Source: Collinsella sp. AF23-2
GTDB taxonomy: Bacteria > Actinomycetota > Coriobacteriia > Coriobacteriales > Coriobacteriaceae
DNA length: 64,000 nt
Reading direction: 5' to 3'
Assembly (NCBI RefSeq): GCF_003459245.1
Contig: NZ_QRVG01000012.1
Span: 6,580-70,579, forward strand
Translations under genes and position numbers: made by a program
The notes under the pieces: generated by a model
The model's input: only the letters and a program-made list of their open reading frames with translations
The model's database searches: none
Told to the model about the DNA's origin: nothing
Shown here: piece by piece, positions 37,144-43,018 of the stretch
How the letters are laid out: every line of letters begins with the position of its first letter
How positions within the stretch are numbered: position 1 is the first letter of the stretch

Positions 37144-37890
37144 CTAGAACAGGAAGCCGATGGCGATGAGGGCGATGCTGACGATGAGTACGGCGATGTC
37201 CAGGCCCTTGATGGGGTAGCGCTTGTACGAGCTGACGCGTGTACGCAGATAGAAGCCGCGCTGTTCTGCCGCCAAGGCTGTGGCATCGGTCTTGCCCACG
37301 CTCGAGATGAGCAGTGGCACGCACAGTGGCAGCATGAGCTTAAGCTTCTTGATGGGGTTCTTGGTGTCGTACTCGACGCCGCGTGCGGTCTGCGCCTCCA
37401 TGATGGCGTTCATCTCCTGACCAAACACCGGAACAAAGCGCAGCGCCGTGGTAAAGGTGAAGGCATAGCGATACGGTACGTGCAGCACCTCGACGCAGGC
37501 GTTGGCAAGGTCGTTGAGCTTGGTCACCATGAGCATGAGGATGAGTGGCAGCGCCACGCCCAGCAGGCGCAGACAGGCCTTCGATCCTGTGATGAGGCCC
37601 GTGTCGGTGATAAAGCCCCACACCACGTTGCCATCGCGCATAAAGGCTAGCTGGAGTACCAGCATGATAAGCGCGAGCGGAATCAGCAACTTGAGCAGCG
37701 AGAACAGACGGTCGACGACACCGGCATAGGCACCCAGTGCAAGGGTGAGTGCCAAAAAGCCCAGCAGCGCCACGTAGGTGTCGGACAAGAAGATGCCGAC
37801 GATGATGGCGGCGGCGAGGCCCAGTTTGACGACGGGGTTCAGGCGATGCAGTAGCGTATCGCCTGGCATGTAGTCGATGACGTTAACCAC
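37144..37890 (-). CDS. ecfT: ECF transporter T component
   Basis: A 248-residue membrane protein with about six segments. VNVIDYMPGDTLLHRLNPVV is the usual T-component opening. LMLMVTKLNDLANACVEVLH and FTTALRFVPVFGQEMNAIME (with the A-R-G signature in AQTARGVEY) are the cytoplasmic coupling helices that contact the ATPases. It energises uptake with the double ATPase and the S component encoded upstream. The GTG at 37890 is favoured, as AAGGAG lies 10 bases before it inside the end of the ATPase gene, and the overlap is 8 bases; the frame extends upstream to 37923. Confidence 0.85.
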   Translation of the reverse strand: MVNVIDYMPGDTLLHRLNPVVKLGLAAAIIVGIFLSDTYVALLGFLALTLALGAYAGVVDRLFSLLKLLIPLALIMLVLQLAFMRDGNVVWGFITDTGLITGSKACLRLLGVALPLILMLMVTKLNDLANACVEVLHVPYRYAFTFTTALRFVPVFGQEMNAIMEAQTARGVEYDTKNPIKKLKLMLPLCVPLLISSVGKTDATALAAEQRGFYLRTRVSSYKRYPIKGLDIAVLIVSIALIAIGFLF

Positions 37891-39634
37891 GGCGGACCAT
37901 CTCCTTGGTAATGCGAACGACATCGGTGACCTCGCTCACCTGCGCAAAAGCGGGCGAGACGGAAGATGCCAGACGGCGCGAGAGTTCAATAACCTGGGGC
38001 GGCTCAACATAGGCACGCTGCATGAGATCGATGTTCGAGAATAGCTCGTGCGTGCGGCCGCGGTCGAGGATGCAACCGTCGGCCATTACCACAATGCGCT
38101 CGGCAAAATCCGAGACGACTTCCATATCGTGGCAGACCATAATCACGGCGCAGCCGCGCTCGGCCATGGTGCGCACCGTTTCCATGACGGTCATGCACTC
38201 GCGGTAATCAAGGCCGCTCGTGGGCTCGTCGAGCACGACGATCTTGGGCTCAACCACTACGACGGAGGCAAGCGCCACCATTTGTCGCTGGCCGCGCGAA
38301 AGTGAGAAAGGTGCCTCATCGGCAGGCAGGCCAAAGCGGTCGATAACGAGTTGAGCACGACGCAGAGCCTCGGCACGGTCGATGCCGGCAAGCTCCAGGC
38401 CAAAAGCGACCTCGTCGAGTACGGTATCCTTGCAGATCTGGCGGTCGGGGTTTTGGAAGAGCGTTGCGACTTCGCGGGCGATGCGGCTCGTGGGAACGGC
38501 CGCGGTATCCAGTCCCGTGACGCGCACGCTGCCCGAGGCGGGCTTGAGCAGGCCTGTGAGCAGCTTGGTGAGCGTGGTCTTGCCGGCACCGTTTTGGCCG
38601 ACGATGCCCACGAGCTCGCCGGGATAGAGCGTCAGGTTGAGGTCGTGTACGGCGGCGCCGCCATTGGGATAGGCAAACTCAACATGGTCGAAGGTGAGTA
38701 CGGGTTCGGCGTCCTTGGCATGAGGGCGCAACGACGGTGCGTGCGGTGAGCCGGCGGGCGCCTGGGCTTCGCTGGCCGCGTGTGCGGGGTCGACGATGCC
38801 CGAAATCAGGCGCTCGGCCTCATCGACATCCAAGCAAGGGGTACCGCTTACCAGGCCATCGGCCTCGAGGCTATTGAAGATACGCGTGACGCGAGGGCAG
38901 TCGACGCCGATGGCACGGAGCTCGTCGGTATGCGCGAAGACCTCGTGTGGTTCGCCCTGCAGCGCGATTTCGCCATGGTTGAGCACGAGCACGCGGTTGC
39001 AGTACTCCGAGAGCAGGGCGACCTTTTGCTCAACGACGACGATGGTGATTCCAAGTGTGCGGTTTGCCTCACGCAGCGTCTCGAAGACCAACGTGGAGCT
39101 GGCGGGGTCGAGTGCCGCGGTGGGCTCGTCGAGAACCAAGACGCGCGGACGCATGGCTAGGATGGCGGCGATGGCTACCTTTTGCTTCTGTCCGCCCGAG
39201 AGGGTGGCGATCTCGCGGTCGCGCAGGTCGCTGATGCCGACGGTCTCGAGCGTTTCGCTCACGCGCTGCTCGATCTGGTCGTGGGGAACGCCAAAGTTCT
39301 CGAGGCCAAAGAGCATCTCGTCCTCGACGACCGAGGCGACCATCTGCGTGTCGATATCCTGCAGCACGCTGCCGACGATTTGCGACACGTCGGTGAGCGA
39401 GGCTTCGCAGGTGTCGTGGCCGTCAACCATGACGGACCCAAAGAACGTGCCGGTGTAGTGGTGGGGCACGGCACCCGACAGGCAGGCGGCAAGCGTGGAC
39501 TTGCCGGCGCCCGAGGGCCCGATGATGCCGATGAAATCTCCCTTGTTCACGCTGAGCGAGATGTGGCTGAGCGCCTGCTCGGTCTGCGTGCCATAGGAGA
39601 ACGAGACATCGTCGACGTTGATGATCGTTTCCAT
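37883..39634 (-). CDS. ecfA: ECF transporter double ATPase (fused EcfA domains)
   Basis: A 583-residue protein of two ABC ATPases in tandem. The first has Walker A GPSGAGKST (residues 39-47), signature LSGGQKQKVAIAAIL and VLDEPTAALDP; the second has GQNGAGKTT, SRGQRQMVALAS (a degenerate signature where L-S-G-G is S-L-S-R-G) and VLDEPTSGLD. The linker is at about 270-310. It would power the T component and the S component next to it. Most ECF systems have two separate ATPase genes; the fusion is also known in actinobacteria. Start codon ATG at 39634 with GAAAGG upstream. It follows a 200-base stretch with two hairpins. Confidence 0.92.
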   Translation of the reverse strand: METIINVDDVSFSYGTQTEQALSHISLSVNKGDFIGIIGPSGAGKSTLAACLSGAVPHHYTGTFFGSVMVDGHDTCEASLTDVSQIVGSVLQDIDTQMVASVVEDEMLFGLENFGVPHDQIEQRVSETLETVGISDLRDREIATLSGGQKQKVAIAAILAMRPRVLVLDEPTAALDPASSTLVFETLREANRTLGITIVVVEQKVALLSEYCNRVLVLNHGEIALQGEPHEVFAHTDELRAIGVDCPRVTRIFNSLEADGLVSGTPCLDVDEAERLISGIVDPAHAASEAQAPAGSPHAPSLRPHAKDAEPVLTFDHVEFAYPNGGAAVHDLNLTLYPGELVGIVGQNGAGKTTLTKLLTGLLKPASGSVRVTGLDTAAVPTSRIAREVATLFQNPDRQICKDTVLDEVAFGLELAGIDRAEALRRAQLVIDRFGLPADEAPFSLSRGQRQMVALASVVVVEPKIVVLDEPTSGLDYRECMTVMETVRTMAERGCAVIMVCHDMEVVSDFAERIVVMADGCILDRGRTHELFSNIDLMQRAYVEPPQVIELSRRLASSVSPAFAQVSEVTDVVRITKEMVRRG

Positions 39635-39652
39635 GGATACCTTTCATAGTCA

Positions 39653-39696
39653 TTGGGGACGTTCTTTAATGACTAGTCGTTTGAGAACGTCCCCAA
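39653..39696. repeat. hairpin repeat, GGGGACGTTCT type
   Basis: TTGGGGACGTTCT (39653-39665) pairs perfectly over 13 bp with AGAACGTCCCCAA (39684-39696), with an 18-nt loop. It lies 19 bases upstream of the ecfA start codon, inside the operon. Confidence 0.85.
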
Positions 39697-39739
39697 GAGC
39701 TAGTTGTTTGGGACAGTCTTTGGTGGTGGAGCACGGATA

Positions 39740-39840
39740 CGGCTTTACGAGGGGCCCCAGGTTGGCGCGAAAGAGGAGCGAAGCGTACTTGGGTACGCGA
39801 GCGACGAATGAACGCCAAGATGGGGTGGCTCGTAAAGCCG
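39740..39840. repeat. large imperfect hairpin element
   Basis: CGGCTTTACGAG (39740-39751) and CTCGTAAAGCCG (39829-39840) are perfect 12-bp inverted ends. Inside, CCCCAGGTTGGCG and CGCCAAGATGGGG continue the pairing, and the tip GCGTACTTGGGTACGC forms a further stem. The total is about 100 nt, ending 6 bases before the trpP-like stop. It looks like an intergenic repeat or an mRNA-stabilising structure between trpP and ecfA. Confidence 0.8.
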
Positions 39841-39846
39841 AGTGGG

Positions 39847-40419
39847 TTAGTTGAGCTTCAGGGCCTTCTGAATGGGCAGGTAGAGGGCACCGACCAGAAT
39901 GGCGTTAAAGACGGCGGTCATGGCGACGACGGGCAGCATGGCGGCGGCGAGCTCGCCGACCACGCCGAGCATGGCCATCTTGATGACCATGAAGATGACA
40001 CCTGAGACAAAGGTGGTCAGGAAGGTTGCGACAATGGCGATGGCGGGCTTGACCTGACCGTTCTTGCCGGCGGCGTTGACGATGCCGGCCATGAGCATGG
40101 CGGCGATGCCCTCAGCGGCAAAATCGACGAACGGCGAAGTGGTGGTGATCTGGATCACGGCAGCCGAGATGAGGCCAATGACGAGCGCCTGGCCGATATT
40201 GGGGCGAACGACTAGGATGGTGAGGCAGAAGGCCGAGATGATGAACTCGGGGCTGATCATGCCGCCCGAGATGCCCGAGATTGCCTTGCCGACGGTGAAG
40301 TTGAGGATGAAGCCGGCGGCGAGCAGGATGGCGAGCAGGACGAGGGCGCGGACATCGAGTTTGCCACGGTCGGCGGTCTGGACGGTGCGGGGCTGGGTGG
40401 CGGTGGTGTTCTGAGACAT
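39847..40419 (-). CDS. trpP: ECF transporter S component, TrpP-like tryptophan transporter
   Basis: A 190-residue integral membrane protein with about 5-6 segments. LDVRALVLLAILLAAGFILN, then MISPEFIISAFCLTILVVRP, and AVIQITTTSPFVDFAAEGIA fit the TrpP family of tryptophan transporters; the I-T-T-T-x-P motif is also in Bacillus TrpP. The leader peptide upstream contains three Trp codons in a row, which independently points to tryptophan as substrate. It is the first structural gene of the operon with ecfA and ecfT. ATG at 40419 with AAAGGA 8 bases upstream. Confidence 0.85.
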   Translation of the reverse strand: MSQNTTATQPRTVQTADRGKLDVRALVLLAILLAAGFILNFTVGKAISGISGGMISPEFIISAFCLTILVVRPNIGQALVIGLISAAVIQITTTSPFVDFAAEGIAAMLMAGIVNAAGKNGQVKPAIAIVATFLTTFVSGVIFMVIKMAMLGVVGELAAAMLPVVAMTAVFNAILVGALYLPIQKALKLN

Positions 40420-40495
40420 GGTGAAAATCCTTTCGGAAGGGGATTGCAAGGGAAAAGCGGAGGCGCGTGATGCGAATGCGATTGGGCTCGAGATA

Positions 40496-40526
40496 GAAAA
40501 AGGCCCCCGGTCGAAACCGGAGGCCT
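40496..40526 (-). terminator. intrinsic terminator of the Trp attenuator
   Basis: On the minus strand AGGCCTCCGGT (40526-40516), TTCG-type loop, ACCGGGGGCCT (40511-40501) pair over 11 bp with one G-U, followed by five T (40500-40496). It lies 38 bases after the leader-peptide stop and about 75 bases before the trpP ATG. Its loop and 3' arm (40508-40514) can alternatively pair with the 7 nt at 40570-40576 in the leader-peptide gene. Confidence 0.85.
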
Positions 40527-40563
40527 TCCAATCACCTAGAGCGCAAAAACAGGCGTGAGGGAC

Positions 40564-40632
40564 TCACTGTCGACCGATCGTATTCGCATCACGCCACCAC
40601 CAGTTGTTGAGAGACTTCATCGTGTTCTTCAT
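40564..40632 (-). CDS. tryptophan leader peptide (attenuator)
   Basis: A 22-codon frame starting at ATG 40632 and ending with TGA at 40564-40566. It has AAAGGAG about 8 bases upstream. Residues 11-13 are three consecutive Trp (TGG TGG TGG, 40602-40594), in the context LNNWWWRDAN, followed by TIGRQ. This is the hallmark of a ribosome-mediated attenuator. Codons 19-21 contain CGGTCGA, which is exactly complementary to TCGACCG in the downstream terminator. So when a ribosome stalls on the Trp codons this segment is free to form an antiterminator, and when it reads on to the stop the segment is covered and the terminator forms. Confidence 0.88.
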   Translation of the reverse strand: MKNTMKSLNNWWWRDANTIGRQ

Positions 40633-40690
40633 GTTGGTGGCTCCTTTCGTGATGCCGTGGCGCGGTCGCACCTAGTTGCTGTTGCGCTGC

Positions 40691-40740
40691 ACTATAGCAC
40701 AGCGAAGTGTGTGCGGGGAAATCTTTTTTAAAAAGATTTC
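40691..40740 (-). promoter_or_regulatory. promoter and palindrome upstream of the Trp leader
   Basis: ACTATA at 40691-40696 is a TATAGT -10 on the minus strand, about 60 bases before the leader ATG. The -35 region overlaps a near-perfect 23-nt palindrome at 40718-40740 (GAAATCTTTTT then TAAAAAGATTTC) which could be an operator or the end of another transcript. Confidence 0.5.
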
Positions 40741-40774
40741 AGGTGGGTTTCCCGTCGGTCAAAAGAGCGGGCTA

Positions 40775-40808
40775 AGCGGGCGAGGCTGCCATTGCTGCCT
40801 CGCCCGCT
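40775..40808 (-). terminator. terminator of the C69 dipeptidase gene
   Basis: AGCGGGCGAGG (40775-40785) and CCTCGCCCGCT (40798-40808) form a perfect 11-bp stem 11 bases beyond the stop at 40820, followed on the minus strand by a T-rich stretch. Confidence 0.75.
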
Positions 40809-40819
40809 CAGCTAAGACG

Positions 40820-42781
40820 TTACTCCTTATTGCGACGGTAGAGGAAGTAACCGCCTGCGGAGATGACGGCAACGCCAGCGATGGCGAATGCAGCCACCAC
40901 GCGGCCATCAAAACGATCACCGGTGGTGGGCAGGCCGCCCTTGGTGTTCGTCTTGTTGGTGGTTACTGTGGTCGTGGTGTCGGACTTGCCAGGCTTCTCG
41001 GGCTTGGTGGTGGGCTGCTCGGGCTTAGCGGGCTGCTCGGGCTTAGCGGGCTGCTCGGGGGTACCGGGCTGCTCAGGAGTACCAGGCTGCTCGGGGGTGC
41101 CAGGCTGATCCGGGGTTACCGGGTCGGTGGCAAGAGCGTCCTTGGCGTAGGTGATGGACACCTTGAGGCCGTTGGTCTCGGTGTTCAGGTCGCTCGGGGT
41201 GAAGGGCGTGCTGAAATCCTCAGCCTTCAGATAAGCGCGCATCTCCTGGAGAAGGGCCTTGCACTTGACGTAGGTGTTCTCAGTGGCAGCCTTGCCGGCC
41301 TTGTTTGCCAGGGCGGTGCGGCCCTCAGTGGTGGTCTCGGCCTGCATAGCAGCATCGACCTCAAGGTTCTGCTCGATGAGCTCGTTCTGGAGAGCGTCGA
41401 GGTAGGCGCGAACGCCGGTGCCGAGCTGCTCGCGGTGCTCGTAGCAGAGGGAACTAATGTCCATGAGGACGTAGTTGATGGAGTTCTCGGGCTCCTCGTT
41501 GTTCACGATGTCCGTCTCTTCGCAGTGATCGTAGGAGACATCCTGATTGCTGAAGTAGGGGCTGACCTCGGTGAGCAGTGCAGAGTACAGAGGAATAGCG
41601 ACGGAGTAGGCGGCGCGGGAGAGCATCTCCCACTGAATGGTCGCGATCTCGGGGTCCATGCCCTGACGGATCTGGAAGAGGTTGGTCTCGGTGCTTCTTT
41701 CGGTGCCGATGGCGTAGACACCGTCGGTGTTGGCGTTGAGGCCGGGGACATTTTCGCCGCGGTTGCCAAATGCACGGATCATCTCAAAGGTGTTCCAGTC
41801 GGACTTGCCGGGCTTGAAGAACAGGGGCTGGATCTCGCTGACCATGGCTCCGATTTGGTCGGGGCCTTTTTCCGGTTTAACCGTGACGATGTCGTAATCT
41901 GCACCCTTGGTCAACGGGGCCATGAAGTAATCGCGGCCCTGGACATAGCGAGTCCACTGATGAACGCCGGAATCGGCGACGCTTTTGCCATAGGTCTTGG
42001 CAACGTCGAACTTGCCGTCGGTGTACTCGGCGAAGCCATTTTTCTCGGGCATGGTCTGGATGCCCTCGGAGTGGAGGCAGTTCTCGGCGTCATCAAGGTT
42101 GACATCGTAATTGAGTCCGCCGATGTTGGGGTTGAGTGAGGCGACGTCATCGGCGAGCTTCATGGCGATCCACTGGTGGCCGGAAAGTGCGGCAAACAGC
42201 CAAGTCTCGTTGCTGTCGGCGATGATAATCTGATCGTTGCCGTTGGCGCCCTGCTCGTCGATGATCTTGCCGAGGAGCTCGACACCCTCACGTGCTTTGG
42301 CACTTTCGCCTAAGATAACGCTGCCGTAGCTATACTCGCCAATGCCAGTGTCGGTCAGGGGGTCTGCCTTGGCGGCTTTATCGTTCATGTTGGTGGTCAG
42401 CGTTGCGGAGCAGGACACGCCCTTCTCGTTGATGCCTGCCTCAGAGTAGGCATCATAGCGCCCGTGCCACTGCGAAGGATGATCGCGCACGTAGCTATAA
42501 CGATATGTAGTCTTGGTCGACCTGTATGAGAAGTCGGACTCGTCTGAGCCGTAGGTATACCCGGGGGCATGCGACGGCTCAATGCCAAAGTGCTTGAGGT
42601 AGCGCGGGCCAAAGTCCTCGGCGCGACCATAATATGTGTTGCCGTCGGCTGTTAGGTTTTTGCCCATGTACATCTGCGTGCAGGCGAGCGCAGATGTCGG
42701 CATGGACATGATGGTCGCAGCTCCAAAGGCGAGGCCTATGCCTAGCTTCTTGAGCGCGTTGACGGGGCGAGTTTTCCTCAT
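40820..42781 (-). CDS. cell-wall-anchored C69-family dipeptidase
   Basis: A 653-residue surface protein. A signal peptide ends at ALA before Cys34 (CTQMYMGKNLTADG), which becomes the N-terminal nucleophile typical of C69 (PepD/U34) dipeptidases. NTYYGRAEDFGPRYLKHFG and IIIADSNETWLFAALSGHQW are family motifs. Around 560-600 is a P-E-Q-P-G-T / P-E-Q-P-A-K repeat stalk, then LPTTG at 617-621, a hydrophobic segment and RRNKE: a sortase signal. The enzyme would hydrolyse dipeptides at the cell surface and feed amino acid uptake. The ATG has GGGAGGG nearby. A hairpin lies in its leader. Confidence 0.9.
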   Translation of the reverse strand: MRKTRPVNALKKLGIGLAFGAATIMSMPTSALACTQMYMGKNLTADGNTYYGRAEDFGPRYLKHFGIEPSHAPGYTYGSDESDFSYRSTKTTYRYSYVRDHPSQWHGRYDAYSEAGINEKGVSCSATLTTNMNDKAAKADPLTDTGIGEYSYGSVILGESAKAREGVELLGKIIDEQGANGNDQIIIADSNETWLFAALSGHQWIAMKLADDVASLNPNIGGLNYDVNLDDAENCLHSEGIQTMPEKNGFAEYTDGKFDVAKTYGKSVADSGVHQWTRYVQGRDYFMAPLTKGADYDIVTVKPEKGPDQIGAMVSEIQPLFFKPGKSDWNTFEMIRAFGNRGENVPGLNANTDGVYAIGTERSTETNLFQIRQGMDPEIATIQWEMLSRAAYSVAIPLYSALLTEVSPYFSNQDVSYDHCEETDIVNNEEPENSINYVLMDISSLCYEHREQLGTGVRAYLDALQNELIEQNLEVDAAMQAETTTEGRTALANKAGKAATENTYVKCKALLQEMRAYLKAEDFSTPFTPSDLNTETNGLKVSITYAKDALATDPVTPDQPGTPEQPGTPEQPGTPEQPAKPEQPAKPEQPTTKPEKPGKSDTTTTVTTNKTNTKGGLPTTGDRFDGRVVAAFAIAGVAVISAGGYFLYRRNKE

Positions 42782-42800
42782 TTTCCCTCCCAGCGTGCGA

Positions 42801-42824
42801 AAGCCCTCTGTCGCCAGAGGGCTT
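42801..42824 (-). other. 5'-leader hairpin of the dipeptidase gene
   Basis: AAGCCCTCTG (42801-42810) and CAGAGGGCTT (42815-42824) form a perfect 10-bp stem with a 4-nt loop, about 20-43 bases upstream of the dipeptidase ATG and just before its ribosome site. It may stabilise the mRNA or modulate translation. Confidence 0.6.
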
Positions 42825-43018
42825 CAGCCAATAAAGACACCTCATTAGCGTAACGAACTGGAAACAATATTCATCTATGAAAGAAGCTTACTCGATAAGC
42901 GTGATGAAATATGCGATGAACGGTTAATCGTACTCAGTTTGCAGCTTTACTTTAATAAAGACGCCCTGTAATTACTGTAGCCGAATAAAGTAGCTGGGAA
43001 TGCCCGAAATGAAAATCC

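Follow-up and report, generated by a model that had tools for sequence, protein, structure and literature searches.

What controls an importer operon that is preceded by a short reading frame with three consecutive Trp codons and by an intrinsic terminator is the question raised by the locus described here. It lies on the minus strand of the window, as we call the whole stretch of 64,000 nucleotides of Collinsella sp. AF23-2 DNA that was analysed. The initial annotation had proposed a Trp leader attenuator acting on an ECF uptake operon, and this interpretation is supported by the Trp codons, their spacing and the pairing that is kept in relatives. The leader very probably switches a tryptophan importer on when tryptophan is short, and relatives of two families appear to carry the same switch.

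Organization of the leader region

The leader peptide would be translated from a 22-codon open reading frame, MKNTMKSLNNWWWRDANTIGRQ (40564..40632; all features of the window given here are on the minus strand), recognized by its sequence and its conservation in relatives. It is preceded by the ribosome binding site AAAGGAG (40641..40647) and harbors three tandem Trp codons, TGGTGGTGG (40594..40602), likewise found in relatives, as the putative regulatory codons; frame, ribosome site and Trp codons are present where the initial annotation had placed them. A -10-like TATAGT (40691..40696) may belong to the leader promoter. A TATA[AG]T hexamer occurs at most 120 nt 5' of the leader frame in 59 of 87 distinct leaders, a count that has no control set, and a consensus promoter scan detected no promoter. 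Further upstream (40820-42781) lies the gene of a peptidase of the C69 family that has a proline-rich tail and contains GLPTTGD, which we take to be an LPxTG-like motif; an inverted repeat follows.

Several segments of the leader RNA are complementary to one another. Segment A, GCGUGAUGCGAAU (40582..40594), starts in the last Trp codon and is complementary both to segment B, CUCACGCC (40552..40559), located after the leader stop, and to strand D', AUUCGCAUCACGC (40465..40477), located between the terminator and trpP; A is delimited by folding, partner swaps and relatives, B by folding and swaps, and D' by its covariation in relatives. The candidate antiterminator strand, (U)CGGUCGA (40570..40577), falls within the last leader codons and is defined by its pairing and by codon conservation. 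The intrinsic terminator, a hairpin followed by a T run (40497..40528), was found by terminator scan and by folding, and its loop and 3' arm contain UCGACCG (40508..40514), the complement of the antiterminator strand. The match of CGGTCGA (40570-40576) to TCGACCG is exact, as had been claimed; the terminator and its T run are also there, but the stem of 11 bp first assigned to it was too short, as RNAfold gives 14 pairs. As a whole, the leader of the window folds barely better than shuffled sequences (z -1.27, with 16 of 200 shuffles as good).

The importer operon

Behind the leader, the ribosome binding site GAAAGGA (40428..40434) precedes trpP (39847..40419), which encodes a TrpP-like ECF S component of 190 aa. 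Its score against PF17099 is 22.8 bits, below the cut-off of 27.2, and the precomputed PF17099 label is carried by 39 of 120 listed relatives. The predicted structural model has six helices (pLDDT 78), and the five top-listed Foldseek matches to it are all chains of ECF S components or of CbiM (probability 0.91-1.00, E at least 0.075); against the PDB the best matches are ECF S components, none of them with E below 0.001. The model thus predicts a six-helix S-component fold, encoded next to ECF A and T genes. These are a fused double ECF ATPase of 583 aa with two ABC domains (37883..39634; TIGR04520, 459.9 bits, cut-off 315) and a T component of the CbiQ family (37144..37923; PF02361, 92.7 bits, cut-off 25; TIGR02454, 61.2 bits, below its cut-off of 111.8). 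The trpP-ecfA-ecfT operon proposed at the outset is therefore borne out in its three components; the system does have ATPase domains of its own, both in one fused gene.

This organization is shared by relatives. TrpP is 98-99% identical in 13 named or MAG records (nine of C. aerofaciens, the others of Collinsella), and a single cluster of TrpP-like importer components represents 9095 member sequences. Among the loci with 3 kb of downstream DNA, an ATPase gene follows trpP in 88 of 88 and a T gene in 85 of 88, the gene orders being P-A-T (68), P-P-A-T (17), P-A (2) and P-P-A (1). The second, tandem trpP-like gene of 18 of these 88 operons (for example L044, L067 and L087) is 43-50% identical to the first.

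Conservation of the leader in relatives

Relatives were searched around the nearest genome, G001. TrpP is present in 63 of 65 genomes of the family, and in 57 of 57 of good quality; a contig collection provided 62 further TrpP loci. In all, 149 loci were oriented, or 150 with the window, some genomes being counted twice. A leader was defined as an open reading frame with NWWW, KWWW or, in L104, NWW, at most 400 nt 5' of trpP. Such a leader was found in 147 of the 150 loci, in the form of 87 distinct sequences. Since 26 of the 150 loci had been fetched by the leader pattern AAYTGGTGGTGGCG itself, the count was repeated without them, and a Trp leader is present in 121 of the remaining 124 loci (71 distinct sequences, some genomes again counted twice). 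The three exceptions are L119, where the leader reads W-A-W and the RNA parts are unchanged; L084, where the contig begins 24 nt upstream of trpP; and L090, where an FtsW-like frame stands upstream of a Collinsella-like trpP. This last contig is labelled Lachnospiraceae, and with a Collinsella-like trpP right behind the FtsW-like frame it is perhaps chimeric. Another 19 exact-pattern hits away from trpP (L124-L127, L239-L253) were rejected, as they appear to have arisen by chance in coding DNA or in other frames; no leader is among them.

WWW is kept in nearly all leaders, with WW in L104 and L176 and W-A-W in L119. The frame and its ribosome site are retained across loci, the frame beginning with TTG in L208 and L209. 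Besides WWW, mostly the N before it and the R after it are conserved, and the other residues vary. Counted from the first Trp codon, the stop is at +36 in 84 of the 87 distinct leaders; two others have it at +30, and the single leader with two Trp codons has it at +33. The alignment of relatives that the initial annotation had called for therefore speaks for its proposal, as the Trp codons are conserved and their distance to the antiterminator strand, measured from the first of them, is fixed.

In Atopobiaceae, the leader is present in 26 of 28 fetched loci (L234 standing for L180, and G348 lying outside the set), or in 18 of 20 once eight loci picked from pattern hits are set aside. It is absent from two loci, L177 and L178, of genomes G201 and G206, where the terminator with GACC is retained. 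Loss of the Trp codons with the terminator kept was the pattern expected to speak against an attenuator if found in close relatives. These two genomes match it in both respects, but they are distant: they are not close relatives (47% identity in TrpP), and each has a trpB gene and, upstream of it, a T-box.

Pairing of the leader with the terminator

Conservation at the RNA level is seen in the last leader codons and in the terminator. The codon at +27 is GGT in all 87 distinct leaders, followed by C in 85 and by T in two, against a background of 109 GGT among 1214 Gly codons (9%) in the trpP genes. An intrinsic terminator, detected independently of the leader sequence, lies between the leader frame and the first gene in all 87, and at the border of its loop and 3' arm it carries G[AG]CC in every case (GACC in 83), whereas among the other terminators in these loci the motif occurs in 10 of 58. 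Of the 10 control terminators with CC at the start of the 3' arm, three have a loop that ends in GA.

Among 49 sequences below 85% identity, positions +26 to +30 of the leader pair with the terminator in every one, and +25 in 46. One-sided changes preserve the antiterminator pair (C-G to U-G, U-A to U-G), and in three loci both strands have been replaced with pairing kept: ACUCUGA/UCAGAGU in L204, pairing at +25, and CGGAUCA/UGAUCCG in L209 and CGGAUUA/UAAUCCG in L208, both at +26, the last two differing by one change on each side. The covariation that had been named as a check on the alternative stems is thus found, as two-sided changes, in these three loci; among near relatives no two-sided change is seen because the antiterminator core hardly varies there. 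The frame ends earlier in L129, L130, L204, L208 and L209 (at +21 in the last three), with the RNA strand unchanged in position; since the frame ends move and the strand stays, it is the RNA strand and not the end of the peptide that is conserved.

For 24 diverse loci picked by hand, the longest run of complementary bases averages 8.46 when the terminator is that of the locus itself, a value that none of 2000 shuffles equalled, and 7.34 when terminators are swapped; in the 49 sequences the duplex energy of the own antiterminator was reached by 3 of 1000 shuffles. Relatedness is ignored in these swap and shuffle tests, and through their common ancestry the 87 leaders are not independent of one another. 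Taken singly, only 31 of the 49 sequences beat the median swap. Pairing is also imperfect in places, with a C-A mismatch in the core of L179, a mismatch at +26 in L185, no more than five antiterminator pairs in L088 and L171, and in L211 a pairing that requires a bulged base, the longest run falling there in another register.

The hairpins formed by A with B and by B with the linker are weaker claims than the antiterminator pairing. None of 1000 shuffles was as good as the own partners in the 49 sequences, while 30 of 49 (A:B) and 34 of 49 (B:linker) single sequences beat the median swap. RNAalifold, applied to a MAFFT alignment in which the linker is hard to align, recovered the terminator only in part, together with two short pairings in the leader. 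The lowest-energy fold of the window leader with a stalled ribosome still contains the terminator, and as the partner of the antiterminator strand lies in the loop and 3' arm, antitermination would need to be kinetic.

Proposed mechanism and alternatives

From the parts, their conservation, their spacing and their complementarity we infer ribosome stalling, read-through, a response to tryptophan and the substrate of the importer. With high confidence, the leader is a ribosome-mediated transcription attenuator that would make the expression of the tryptophan ECF importer depend on charged tRNA-Trp. The leading edge of a ribosome lies about 12-14 nt past its A-site codon. With that footprint, a ribosome stalled at any one of the three Trp codons would leave positions +25 to +32 uncovered and one at the stop would cover them, even in L204, L208 and L209, where the stop is at +21; with the strand beginning at +25 to +27 and the stops at +21 to +36, it seems well placed to be freed or covered by the ribosome. 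When tryptophan is ample, the ribosome would reach the stop at +36 and cover CGGUCGA (+26 to +32), so that the terminator forms. When tryptophan is scarce, it would stall on the Trp codons with its leading edge before +25, and the freed CGGUCGA would pair with the terminator loop and 3' arm, allowing transcription to continue into trpP-ecfA-ecfT. The antiterminator would have to prevail during the emergence of the terminator's 3' arm, the 5' arm being already made. In an untranslated leader, the A:B hairpin, holding the antiterminator strand in its loop, may cause termination by default.

Other readings of the region fare poorly. It is very improbable that the leader peptide is incidental and the region is recognized by a factor acting in trans, either a TRAP-like protein or a DNA-binding repressor. 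No Rfam match near the gathering score was found in positions 38000-43000 of the window and no T-box in 11 loci of the leader type, and a protein site would be expected to retain its letters, whereas here both strands change and the pairing is kept. It is hardly credible that the nascent leader peptide arrests in response to free tryptophan and that tryptophan thereby induces the operon, although a Trp-containing leader peptide before a transporter gene does recall tnaC, which stands before tnaA and tnaB. Induction by tryptophan would suit an importer badly in organisms without trpB over the cut-off; of the peptide, besides WWW, mostly the N before and the R after are kept, its Gly-Arg close to the end being explained by the RNA strand; and the stop shifts from +36 to +21 in L204, L208 and L209. 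That the short frame is translated and the terminator constitutive, merely lowering operon expression without regulation, as the leaderless terminators of G201 and G206 could suggest, is scarcely plausible in view of the Trp codons, spacing and complementarity of 87 of 87 distinct leaders and of the replacement of both strands in L204, L208 and L209.

Leader peptide, T-box and tryptophan biosynthesis

In Coriobacteriaceae, trpB is found over the curated cut-off in 1 of 64 genomes, compared with 13 of 14 controls; uptake thus seems to replace biosynthesis in this family. A trpB match of any score occurs in 36 of the 64, and the six long ones, at about 130 bits (cut-off near 380), may be other or TrpB2-like enzymes. 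In the one genome with trpB, G027, a T-box whose specifier was read as UGG (L158, 1501-1759, minus strand) lies 4.7 kb upstream of trpB and precedes a TrpE-like frame. Among Atopobiaceae, trpB exceeds the cut-off in 11 of 61 genomes with TrpP, and 20 genomes have trpB and no TrpP match. Ten of the eleven genomes with both pathways were covered (G201 and G206 included, G330 left out), and all ten have a T-box on the strand of trpB, 4.7-5.3 kb ahead of that gene, its specifier being read as UGG in the two that were aligned.

In Eggerthellaceae, another sensor is found at trpP itself. A TrpP match occurs in 69 genomes, and 34 loci were examined, the remaining 35 being mostly weaker matches. An RF00230 T-box precedes trpP in 29 of the 34 (19 of 20 and 10 of 13 in two scans), with scores below the Rfam gathering score of 93 and E values of 2.1e-9 or better, and reading the specifier gave UGG in each of the 10 alignments shown. 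Four loci carry a Trp leader, namely L208 (recognized by eye), L209, L211 and L189, the last with a Collinsella-like trpP and with L052 as the named counterpart scanned for a T-box. Neither element was found in L225, for which 364 nt upstream are available, nor in L213, from another family. Conversely, no RF00230 T-box was detected in positions 38000-43000 of the window, and none at E 0.01 in 11 loci of the leader type, ten with the leader and one that has lost it. Two RNA sensors are therefore found at one gene, a T-box in most Eggerthellaceae examined and a leader peptide in Coriobacteriaceae and Atopobiaceae. That two unrelated Trp-specific control elements precede trpP points to tryptophan as the likely substrate of the importer. 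Neither this T-box in a related family nor the third strand behind the terminator was part of the initial annotation.

A third strand behind the terminator

Strand D' appears to be a feature of the Coriobacteriaceae-type leaders. A partner for A above the set threshold is present in 42 of 48 distinct leaders of this type and in 100 of 960 shuffled trials, and a Watson-Crick A/D' run of at least 8 in 34 of the 48 and in none of 39 Atopobiaceae leaders; a Slackia copy whose trpP is Collinsella-like has D' as well. Pairs are changed on both sides at +10, +11, +13, +14, +15 and +17; as the register was picked to maximize pairing from +8 to +16, pairing is favoured by this choice within that range but not at +17. 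In a tree of trpP inspected by eye, two-sided states sit on different branches, amid sequences that have the common state. As D' is made after the terminator, it cannot act on it. That D' hides the trpP ribosome site was considered and rejected, the mean unpaired probability being 0.56 without a ribosome, 0.50 with one at the Trp codons and 0.55 with one at the stop (44 of 48 sequences). It is conceivable, if rather doubtful, that the place of the ribosome on the Trp codons controls two outputs, with D':A pairing, once tryptophan is back, ending translation of the uptake mRNA already present or destabilizing it. In the full-length message such pairing might form in cis after the ribosome leaves, or in trans by means of the terminated leader RNA.

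Comparison with known systems

Some apparent precedents concern other systems: as far as the consulted portions of these papers go, TrpP of C. glutamicum is a different, SdpI-like protein (PMC11995493), and the Chlamydia trp leaders precede trpB (PMC3937554). The initial annotation knew of no WWW-leader attenuator on an ECF S-component operon, and the matches listed, with subscription literature mostly outside them, likewise include no report of a Trp leader from Coriobacteriia or before an uptake operon, whether of the ECF type or not; the accessible text of PMC8546594 describes no Trp leader on an ECF uptake operon, and that of PMC2494555 does not name TrpP, Collinsella or Atopobium. Trp leaders on biosynthesis genes or trpS, exchange of T-box and leader peptide, and T-boxes on uptake genes are known, and it is the leader of an ECF importer that is undescribed among those matches.

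In E. coli trpL, region 2 pairs with region 3, which forms the 5' arm of the terminator, whereas here the partner lies in the loop and 3' arm in most loci and the target is transport. As described for trpL in the accessible part of PMC8546594, the position of the ribosome on the Trp codons would decide between terminator and read-through. The same text reports that the terminated trp leader RNA of Sinorhizobium meliloti, rnTrpL, base-pairs in trans, a possible model for a hypothetical in trans action of A/D'.

The consulted parts of PMC1262725 place Trp leaders of Actinobacteria (Corynebacterium, Streptomyces) on biosynthetic operons, and in some Streptomyces also before trpS. With these the present leader shares a short frame with two or three UGG codons, a GC-rich terminator with a U run, and an alternative antiterminator. 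It differs in its target, an ECF uptake operon instead of biosynthesis or a synthetase, and in its pairing, GGUC of the last leader codons with the terminator loop and 3' arm instead of a gGCC-rGCy-GGCC triple. His-leader attenuators in Gram-positives, and the exchange of T-box and leader peptide at one gene, are reported in the available sections of PMC9413887 and PMC2965389; amino acid leader peptides outside Proteobacteria and sensors exchanged at one gene are thus common to both cases, while the amino acid, genes and clades there are others, and no ECF S-component operon figures in those sections. The Trp T-box of TrpX in S. suis (PMC9382623, as partly available) resembles the present system in that charging of tRNA-Trp controls tryptophan uptake, but a T-box senses the tRNA directly, with no leader peptide, and here it is at trpP of Eggerthellaceae that a T-box is found. 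The leader described here would thus be a textbook tryptophan attenuator moved from synthesis to import, in bacteria that, among the Coriobacteriaceae examined, nearly all lack trpB over the cut-off.
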